Shown in pieces: positions 8,014 through 12,281 of a stretch of DNA of 34,034 bases. The position numbers were made by a program, and so were the translations under genes. Source of the DNA: a virus. The DNA is taken from positions 1-34,034 of IMG/VR virus record IMGVR_UViG_3300021602_000015; one strand, given 5' to 3'. Position 1 is the first letter of the stretch. Each line of letters starts with the position of its first letter. The notes under the pieces are model-generated. The model searched no databases. It was given only the letters and a program-made list of their open reading frames with translations, and had not been told where the DNA came from.

Positions 8014-8046
8014 CAAAAGAAAAGCCCGGGAAAAGGTCCCAGGCTT
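8014..8046 (-). terminator. intrinsic terminator of the hammerhead RNA unit
   Basis: Ten-bp stem AAGCCTGGGA/TCCCGGGCTT (one G.U), tail TTTTC. Confidence 0.82.
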
Positions 8047-8414
8047 CAATGTCTTTATCACTGACGGCACCAAGAATCCCCGGAACCGCTCTTCGCCACG
8101 CACCTTCAATGTTCCGTTAGATCGTTTAGATCCAACTTCCCTCCAGTGTTCTCGCAGCAACCTACTTCTATCATTTTCTATATATATGACATTATTATTT
8201 CCTCCACAGGATAATAATAAGTGGCCGGGGTTCTACCCCTACTCTATTAGTTTATCGTTTAGCATCCTTTGAATATATCCCCTTCGCAGATGGATAGTCC
8301 GCAAGTTACCTTTGGCCCTTATTTCTAATCCCATCTGGACAATTCCTATCACTGGTTAATAGGCTGTGGAGAGAGGATTTGTGTAGCGTACCGGTACCAT
8401 TGTTCCTAACACAA
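8014..8414 (-). ncRNA. structured RNA released by the hammerhead, ending at a terminator
   Basis: About 400 nt without convincing protein-coding content. Inverted repeats: CAGATGG/CCATCTG (8287-8337), a GGGG-TAGAA-CCCC hairpin (8226-8238 region), and ATTATTAT/ATAATAAT (8191-8218) that encloses GGAGG ahead of an ATG with only four codons. It ends at a 10-bp stem followed by TTTTC (8022-8046). Its 5' end would be set by ribozyme cleavage. Function unknown. Confidence 0.65.
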
Positions 8415-8529
8415 TACCATAAGACGAGAAGTCCCATCTTAGTCTCAACCGTGTACGTCCGGCGAGTTAAAAAGTTCCCTACGCTCCTCAAGTCTTACAG
8501 TTTCGTCCTTCCGGACTCATCAGTTGTGT
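8409..8529 (-). ncRNA. hammerhead self-cleaving ribozyme, type I, with 66-nt stem III loop
   Basis: All conserved core bases are present: CTGATGA (8523-8517), stem II GTCC-GGAA-GGAC (8516-8505), GAAA (8504-8501). Stem I pairs ACACAA (8529-8524) with TTGTGT (8414-8409). Stem III pairs ACTGTAAGAC (8501-8492) with GTCTTATGGT (8425-8416), ten pairs including two G.U. Predicted cleavage follows the GUA triplet, between 8415 and 8414. Stem III closes a 66-nt loop instead of the usual short one. A TATAAATA late promoter lies 15 bases upstream. Confidence 0.9.
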
Positions 8530-8535
8530 AATAAT

Positions 8536-8790
8536 TTACGAAGTATTTATATCACAAATATGAATAATATCATTTTCCTTTTCGTATGCTCTTGCCTCAT
8601 TCACATAATCTGATCTAGCTGGGTCCGACATTATTTCTTTAAGAAATAGTTCGAACATACTTTCATCATGAAAAATATGTATGTTAGTAAAGACCAAACC
8701 ATCATCTGATAAAGAGACGGAGCGAAAAAGCAAATATGAGCAATTCTTTATAAAATCCTTCATATTTCTAATTTTTGAATCTTCTGCCAC
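8536..8790 (-). CDS. hypothetical protein between two structured RNAs
   Basis: 84 aa from GTG 8790, or 75 aa from ATG 8763 (MKDFIKNCSYLLFRSVS); neither has an ideally spaced SD (GGGAGG abuts the GTG). Contains a central IHIFHDESMFELFLKEIM. No domain recognised. Its last codons contain the perfect late promoter that drives the hammerhead RNA. A late-type GATAAATA box lies upstream at 8855-8862. Confidence 0.6.
   Translation of the reverse strand: MAEDSKIRNMKDFIKNCSYLLFRSVSLSDDGLVFTNIHIFHDESMFELFLKEIMSDPARSDYVNEARAYEKENDIIHICDINTS
8544..8551 (-). promoter_or_regulatory. T4-type late promoter TATAAATA (hammerhead RNA)
   Basis: Exact T4 late consensus. Predicted +1 near 8538, about nine bases before hammerhead stem I. 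Embedded in the last codons of the gene at 8536. Confidence 0.78.
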
Positions 8791-8862: not shown

Positions 8863-8880
8863 TTACATTTATATCAACTA

Positions 8881-9383
8881 CCCTTGCTCCGGTCTTGAAC
8901 CGGACACCGAATGGTCACTAAGGCATGCTTGCAGGACCCGATGACAAAACTCATTCAATGCATCCCCATTTCAAGAGTGTATCAAAAATTCCTAAGGGGA
9001 CTCGAAACCCCAAACTGATATATTAAAAGAATACCAGCGCAGCCGTTTAAGACGCAGGATGCAGGCCCACTGTCTCATACAGGAACTTATAGAAACAAGC
9101 TAAAAGGTGAAATAACACTACGGTGTCCTAAGTCAGCGAACCAACATTAGAACCAAACCGGGCCAGGGGACACCTCTCTAGCTGCAACAAGACTTGATAG
9201 ATTACACTTGCAGGTGGTGCTCTTTCTCGTCAGCTTGCTTCTATAAATACCCGCTCAACAACTATCGACGATGTAGCGGATTCGAACCGCTGGACGGGAA
9301 AGTATTGCTTCAACGACAAGCACTCTACCGTTCTATTCGTTATCAATCATAAACCACTCGATCAACGCCGTTTAACTCTCTAT
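8881..9383 (-). ncRNA. ~500-nt structured RNA with T-loop hairpins
   Basis: Gene-free stretch under a TTGACC-17-TATAAT promoter. Helices: TGCTT-GTCGTTG-AAGCA, AGCGG-TTCGAAT-CCGCT (T-loop), GGTGTCC/GGACACC (9123-9173), AAGTTCCT/AGGAATTT with one G.U, CTGGTA/TATCAG with G.U, ACTC/GAGT plus AATG/CATT (8945-8980), TCCGG-TTCAAGA-CCGGA (T-loop, 8889-8905). No full tRNA cloverleaf can be folded. The G.U pairs fix the strand as minus. Unknown role; could be a GOLLD/ROOL-type phage RNA. Confidence 0.65.
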
Positions 9384-9389
9384 GTGTTA

Positions 9390-9418
9390 ATTATATTGCC
9401 TTTACTGCTTGTGGTCAA
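9390..9418 (-). promoter_or_regulatory. sigma70-type promoter TTGACC-17-TATAAT for the T-loop RNA
   Basis: The -35 overlaps the HD-gene stop. No gene follows for ~600 bases, so it transcribes the structured RNA at 8881-9383. Confidence 0.8.
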
Positions 9419-11403: not shown

Positions 11404-11838
11404 TTAAACCTTTAGATATGCGATGTGTTCTTTGATTGCGTGTTTTTGGTAGGATGTCAACTTATCCCATACCGTATCTGCAACAATGCGACGATCATTG
11501 TATTCGTCATGTGCTTTCTTAAGATCTTTTAGATTTCGTTCAAGGGACTCGAGTTGCCATTCTTCTGTATCATATGTGACAACCTCATCAATATAGATTT
11601 TATTTGTATGATCTTCACACCTGAATAAAACCGAAGGCCCTGTATCTGTTAAACCTACCTGAGCCGATACGCCGAGATGACAAGCCAACTCCTGAGCTTC
11701 CATTAACCGCTTTGGGATGGTTGCTTTATACATCTCGATCAGCGCGGCGCTATTTAGTTCGTATAGTCTACGGGTCTCCGCTTCCTGAGCTATTCGTGCG
11801 GCCTTACGCCCGGAAGGATCAATTACTTTTGTTGCCAT
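11404..11838 (-). CDS. hypothetical protein (144 aa), leaderless, upstream of ligase
   Basis: MATKVIDPSGRKAARIAQEAETRR, with a coiled-coil-like C-terminal half. The ATG at 11838 lies only six bases after TATAAT of a perfect TTGACA-17-TATAAT promoter, so the predicted transcript begins at the start codon and no SD can be used. First gene of the ligase-HD operon. Family not recognised. Confidence 0.82.
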   Translation of the reverse strand: MATKVIDPSGRKAARIAQEAETRRLYELNSAALIEMYKATIPKRLMEAQELACHLGVSAQVGLTDTGPSVLFRCEDHTNKIYIDEVVTYDTEEWQLESLERNLKDLKKAHDEYNDRRIVADTVWDKLTSYQKHAIKEHIAYLKV

Positions 11839-11844
11839 GTATGT

Positions 11845-11873
11845 ATTATAGTTAGATTACATTAAGATGTCAA
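11845..11873 (-). promoter_or_regulatory. perfect sigma70 promoter TTGACA-17-TATAAT (ligase operon)
   Basis: The -10 ends six bases before ATG 11838; +1 predicted at the start codon. Confidence 0.88.
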
Positions 11874-12078
11874 CTGATAGTATCTCCAACCCGAGTCGTT
11901 TAATTTCAGCAATGTCCTTATCGCTGTACTTGTCTTCGTCGAACCAACCATAATAGCCTTGATGGGTAACTTCGTCATCCATCCAGCGGTCCATACTACC
12001 ATCGTCGAATACTCTGAAGCATCCCTCATCAGTATCGACATATGCAATTTTTTCTACATATTTGCTGTGAACTATCAT
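11857..12078 (-). CDS. small acidic hypothetical protein (73 aa)
   Basis: MIVHSKYVEKIAYVDTDEG, then FDDGSMDRWMDDE and GYYGWFDEDKYSDKD. Strongly acidic; could be a decoy or metal-binding protein but nothing specific is visible. ATGA overlap with the preceding gene. Confidence 0.75.
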   Translation of the reverse strand: MIVHSKYVEKIAYVDTDEGCFRVFDDGSMDRWMDDEVTHQGYYGWFDEDKYSDKDIAEIKRLGLEILSVDILM

Positions 12079-12281
12079 TTTACCTTTCTTGGTTTAGGGA
12101 AATAGCCTTCGGCAAGGTCGTCGGTGATAGAATTCATAAATCGAGTCATACTTTCGATATCACCGTGTGCCTGGAAAAATTTCTTCTTAGCACCATCGGC
12201 AAACCGTGTAACAGTGATATGAAGATACTTATCGATGTCTTCAGTAACTTCAAAATCAAACAGTGTCATCAATTTTTGCAT
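12075..12281 (-). CDS. hypothetical protein (68 aa)
   Basis: MQKLMTLFDFEVTEDIDKY, ending GYFPKPRKVK. ATG 12281 has AAAGG six bases upstream, inside the end of the HNH gene (26-base overlap). Unknown function. Confidence 0.75.
   Translation of the reverse strand: MQKLMTLFDFEVTEDIDKYLHITVTRFADGAKKKFFQAHGDIESMTRFMNSITDDLAEGYFPKPRKVK

Follow-up and report, generated by a model that had tools for sequence, protein, structure and literature searches.

We found that a viral DNA stretch of 34,034 nucleotides (IMG/VR record IMGVR_UViG_3300021602_000015, positions 1 to 34,034; the record is a fragment, and the whole stretch is called the window) carries a type I hammerhead ribozyme on its minus strand, directly ahead of a conserved RNA segment. 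The ribozyme is probably functional, acting in cis to mature a phage stable-RNA transcript.

How would such a transcript be made and processed? From the computed features, namely the promoter and terminator sequences, the hammerhead architecture with its compensatory conservation, and the structured RNA that follows it (Table 1), we infer the following course. Most initiation by RNA polymerase would take place at the sigma-70-type promoter (9418-9390), with a possible further, late start at the TATAAATA box, and one transcript would run through the tRNA-like elements, the hammerhead and the conserved structured RNA to the terminator (8047-8021). The hammerhead would then fold and cut between 8415 and 8414. 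The upstream RNAs would be split off carrying a 2',3'-cyclic phosphate, and the downstream structured RNA would gain a precise 5'-hydroxyl end at 8414. Finally, the 3' strand of stem I would re-pair within the product, forming helix P1.

Table 1. Minus-strand features of the window at the hammerhead locus.
Feature	Position	Strand	Details or basis
sigma-70-type promoter TTGACC-17-TATAAT	9390..9418	-	precedes both the tRNA-like zone and the hammerhead
Three tRNA-like elements	8880..9369 (about 9369-9266, 9087-8987, 8978-8880)	-	between promoter and hammerhead
TATAAATA, late-promoter-like box	8551-8544	-	14 bases before stem I
Type I hammerhead ribozyme	8409..8529	-	architecture scan, fold, covariation; model R1 score 94.4 bits
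Stem I, ACACAA / TTGTGT	8529-8524 / 8414-8409	-	6 bp
CTGATGA core	8523-8517	-	
Stem II, GTCC-GGAA-GGAC	8516-8505	-	4 bp
GAA	8504-8502	-	GAAA core when 8501 is included (8504-8501)
Stem III, ACTGTAAGAC / GTCTTATGGT	8501-8492 / 8425-8416	-	10 bp, A15.1-U16.1 included
Stem III apical part, 66 nt	8426..8491	-	upper helix 8487-8484 / 8431-8428, covarying
Predicted cleavage site	between A8415 and T8414	-	hammerhead rule; invariant TATTGTGT in 8/8 sequences
Predicted 3' product, structured non-coding RNA, ~390 nt	8021..8414	-	conserved in relatives; covarying hairpin
Candidate helix P1 at product 5' end	8379..8414	-	TTGTGT 8414-8409 (stem I 3' strand, used again) paired with ACACAA 8384-8379
Conserved block GGTAACT-hairpin-GGRGATATATYCAAAG	8266..8310	-	alignments, strongly conserved
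Hairpin D2, CC[A/G]C-stem, invariant bulged U near base	8189..8224	-	covariation
Intrinsic terminator GAAGCCTGGGACCTTTTCCCGGGCTTT and T-rich tail	8021..8047	-	

Architecture of the hammerhead

Every base of the catalytic core (CUGAUGA ... GAAA) is present and is unchanged across the eight sequences compared below. The three helices join at the core and the structure is open at stem I, which is the type I layout. The A15.1-U16.1 pair is formed by A8501 and U8416, and the GUA triplet ends at A17 (8415). In hammerheads, the cut follows H17 of the NUH triplet, here GUA. An earlier sequence-only reading of this DNA had described a complete type I hammerhead cutting between 8415 and 8414, and our analysis agrees on both points: the core bases, the three stems and the GUA triplet were all found on the minus strand at 8529-8409, and the predicted cut falls at the same position. 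The window hammerhead is thus genuine, its sequence architecture being confirmed. The stem II loop is of the GNAA type in most family members, and the 6-bp stem I shows neither loop nor bulge. Contact between loops I and II speeds natural hammerheads; with a loop-free stem I of 6 bp, such a contact is not evident from the window sequence.

Could this arrangement have arisen by chance? A mechanical search found the full architecture once in the window, compared with none in 60 single-base-shuffled windows and none in 150 windows simulated by a first-order Markov model. Furthermore, the minimum-energy fold of the segment 8529-8409 is exactly the hammerhead, with pair probabilities of 0.63-1.0. 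When the transcript is lengthened to 8375 or 8180, the minimum-energy fold differs and the hammerhead is lost, and therefore folding and cutting would be needed during transcription. A search with the Rfam hammerhead models, named as a check in the earlier reading, fell short at 22.5 bits against a gathering score of 48.5. Because these models also fail on other clear, textbook-like phage hammerheads that we scanned, the shortfall is uninformative and no biological criterion.

Conservation and covariation in relatives

The DNA ligase gene adjoining the hammerhead locus was used as bait, and 30 IMG/VR loci were recovered. Wherever the ligase was at least 60% identical and the contig long enough, a hammerhead was found at the same place, the copy in L013 being interrupted. 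There, a homing endonuclease gene (phrog_655, E 6.7e-39; L013 positions 11673-12162) splits the hammerhead just after stem II. Eight distinct sequences were compared (the window, L010, L012, L011, L014, L017, L018 and L021), and all eight hammerheads sit downstream of the DNA ligase gene. A covariance model built from these sequences recovers the same loci when run on whole records; among the more distant ligase relatives, it gives no match except one unrelated-looking hammerhead in G006. One further locus (L040) matched a pattern but lacks the hammerhead and was rejected as a member. A family pattern fitted only to members with a shorter stem III had no match in bacterial genomes, and the cultured phage collection contained no homologue of the locus, the weak L021 matches in cultured phages falling in the terminator end of L021.

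Two-sided changes were observed in 12 of the 24 pairs across the eight sequences, and none of 500 shuffles scored as high. The proportion of paired alignment cells was 97.4%, and it fell to 39–50% when the partner was slid by 1–3 columns. Stem III, the most variable helix, shows compensatory changes in 8 of its 10 pairs, and in its upper helix both sides changed in three of four pairs with 100% of the cells paired. Most of the covariation evidence comes from stem III, since stem I hardly changes at all and stem II is close to invariant as well.

These data also bear on whether the hammerhead is a decayed or mobile-element-derived sequence that has no present role. The locus does accept insertions, as seen from the endonuclease gene in L013 and from an 84-aa open reading frame in the window; however, the changes in stem III are compensatory and the core bases are invariant, and we see only an extremely slim chance that the hammerhead is such a relic.

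Promoters and the upstream zone

Which promoter would serve the locus? The earlier reading had placed the ribozyme behind a perfect phage late promoter. The TATAAATA box does exist as a sequence, but it occurs in the window at chance frequency (4 copies vs. 3.99 expected). Five of the eight members (the window, L010, L012, L017 and L021) have a late-type box that ends 4–14 bases ahead of stem I; it is missing from the other three (L011, L014 and L018). On the other hand, the window has 12 copies of the motif TTGACN-17-TATAAT, compared with 0.07 expected, and every copy is on the minus strand. In seven of the eight members, a near-consensus sigma-70 promoter lies 410–900 bases upstream of the hammerhead, and the equivalents of the 9418-9390 promoter in six other members match at 11–12 of 12. 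A sigma-70-type transcript is favoured because this promoter class is so over-represented and so regularly upstream, while TATAAATA is at chance level.

In relative G001, a capsid gene of the gp23 type and a weak gp55-like match (E 3.7e-5) were found, which make a T4-type late system in these phages plausible; no gp55-type late sigma factor was found within the window fragment. Given the G001 genes and the boxes in five members, late expression from a second start is possible. The same observations would fit a late-expressed RNA gene, in which transcription has a T4-type late start at TATAAATA and the hammerhead, lying at the very start of the RNA, removes itself. However, the chance frequency of the box, its absence from three members and the sigma-70 promoters upstream of seven make this reading unlikely, and we keep to a transcript that starts mainly at 9418-9390.

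Such a transcript would include the three tRNA-like elements. By eye, these have acceptor-like and T-arm-like pairing and an unusual D-arm region, and related sequence is found in family members; neither ARAGORN nor Rfam identified any of the three. The 84-aa open reading frame (8790-8536, minus strand) lies between this zone and the hammerhead and belongs to no known family. It is absent from the close relatives L010 and L012 and looks like a recent insertion. L011, L013, L014 and L018 share another conserved element around CCCACCCAAGAAG ... GCGGGCATG, apparently structured, which either abuts the hammerhead on its upstream side or lies a short way upstream. Its flanking stem covaries by eye, and no credible Rfam match was obtained in L011 or L018.

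The downstream structured RNA

The segment between the cut and the terminator is taken to be a structured non-coding RNA, judging from its conservation and pairing. In hairpin D2, 53 of 56 cells are paired over the eight sequences, with compensatory changes, and none of 20,000 column shuffles reached this value. A terminator-like hairpin followed by a T-run was also matched in L010, L012, L011, L014 and L021. For P1, each of the eight sequences offers a possible ACACAA-like partner at a distance of 17–36 nt from the cut, every instance being weak on its own (shuffle p 0.003–0.2). For phage hammerheads in general, P1 was not supported, as 7 of 101 products had p < 0.05, which is about chance. 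A pseudoknot between a conserved UAUCC loop and GGAUA fits the window and L014 only and was dropped. No credible match to the downstream RNA of the window, L011 or L018 was found among 4227 Rfam families. RNAalifold, applied to the MAFFT alignment, returned no consensus fold for the whole downstream RNA, and our claims are therefore restricted to single hairpins.

The proposal of a dedicated RNA gene, made in the sequence-only reading, is a fair one, since the hammerhead lies in an RNA-rich zone and the conserved structured RNA behind it has a terminator of its own. The interval given for that gene was too small, as the gene extends to about 8021.

Might the hammerhead instead act on an mRNA leader, processing or regulating it, which is probably what many hammerheads of phages and prophages do? 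Hammerheads flanking phage genes have been described (Perreault et al. 2011, PMC3088659), and many of the other phage hammerheads found here are followed closely by a ribosome-binding site and a start codon. In this locus, however, the next downstream unit is the conserved structured RNA, then the terminator, with a gene at about 7947 beyond it, and one-base indels among close relatives argue against coding sequence in the region. A leader function is thus very improbable here, and maturation of a stable RNA is the reading that we retain.

Hammerheads at tRNA 5' ends in other phage contigs

Hammerheads that cut at the 5' end of a stable RNA are also predicted elsewhere. We searched unrelated viral contigs with a pattern that required a T-loop-like motif downstream and left the exact cut offset free. 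For tRNA-Tyr in L135, L150, L152, L240 and L437, the predicted cut coincides with the tRNA start called by ARAGORN, and in a second L152 hammerhead and the L436 hammerhead, tRNA-Tyr sequence begins straight at the predicted cut. In L190, the cut would fall a single base ahead of the tRNA-Gly start given by ARAGORN. The G006 hammerhead (L129), which the covariance model had matched, is likewise predicted to cut one base ahead of the ARAGORN start of tRNA-His, i.e., before G-1, the base characteristic of tRNA-His, and the acceptor 5' strand of this tRNA doubles as the 3' strand of stem I. In the other tRNA-linked cases too, the acceptor 5' strand of the tRNA forms part of stem I. The scans demanded particular stem II and T-loop letters, and there are at least as many such cases as those listed.

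Most of the other phage hammerheads found precede protein genes. Some viral contigs (L051, L076, L084, L097, L098, L101, L112 and similar) hold two or three short hammerheads hundreds of bases apart, and some of these hammerheads end just before a start codon. With the tRNA-directed pattern, no hammerhead cutting at a tRNA was seen among the loci listed for bacterial genomes. A literature search that covered a minority of subscription papers and no preprints did not turn up any account of hammerheads placed at the 5' ends of tRNAs. The tRNA-linked hammerheads would provide a precedent for 5'-end maturation of a stable RNA by the window hammerhead.

Meaning and comparison with known systems

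Phage hammerheads have been known since 2011, and, to our knowledge, their purpose has mostly been unclear. The locus described here offers one of them a concrete job, which would be to form the 5' end of a conserved phage RNA not described so far. The ribozyme class itself is already known; what is unusual is the conserved, undescribed structured RNA predicted as its product and the likely role in stable-RNA maturation. More broadly, hammerheads may serve phages as a built-in substitute for RNase P. Placed directly upstream of a stable RNA, such a ribozyme would create the mature 5' end in one cut, its stem I would use the 5' strand of the terminal helix of that RNA, and, once cleavage had taken place, this helix would displace stem I. 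On this view, the tRNAs (Tyr, His and Gly) and the window RNA would be two outcomes of one principle, a proposal that we consider evenly poised between right and wrong. If the tRNA cases hold, they would represent RNase P-independent 5' maturation that is encoded in the transcript itself.

How does the locus compare with described systems? Type I hammerheads were reported in phages and prophages by Perreault et al. 2011 (PMC3088659), and in haloviruses HF1/HF2 a hammerhead coincides with a transcript 5' end that has been mapped (PMC3088659). The window hammerhead shares with the Perreault et al. set the catalytic core, the three-stem junction, the NUH triplet and the phage context. It differs in that its predicted product is a structured non-coding RNA rather than an mRNA, and in its long structured stem III apex, its GUA triplet and its sub-threshold Rfam score. 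Similar to T4-type late promoters (PMC2988020), TATAAATA is an 8-base TATA box shortly upstream of an RNA; unlike them, it occurs at chance frequency, and the conserved promoter of the locus is sigma-70-type in appearance.

The HDV-like theta ribozymes, which lie beside phage tRNAs and were proposed to mature them (Kienbeck et al. 2024, PMC10879173), provide the nearest parallel to the tRNA-linked hammerheads of the other contigs, as both are small self-cleaving ribozymes with a cleavage site, in the hammerheads a predicted one, at a phage tRNA. The window hammerhead, in contrast, precedes a structured RNA that is not a tRNA. Theta ribozymes are of a different class and act at the tRNA 3' end, whereas the hammerheads of the other contigs are predicted to cut at the 5' end, where they would complement the theta ribozymes.
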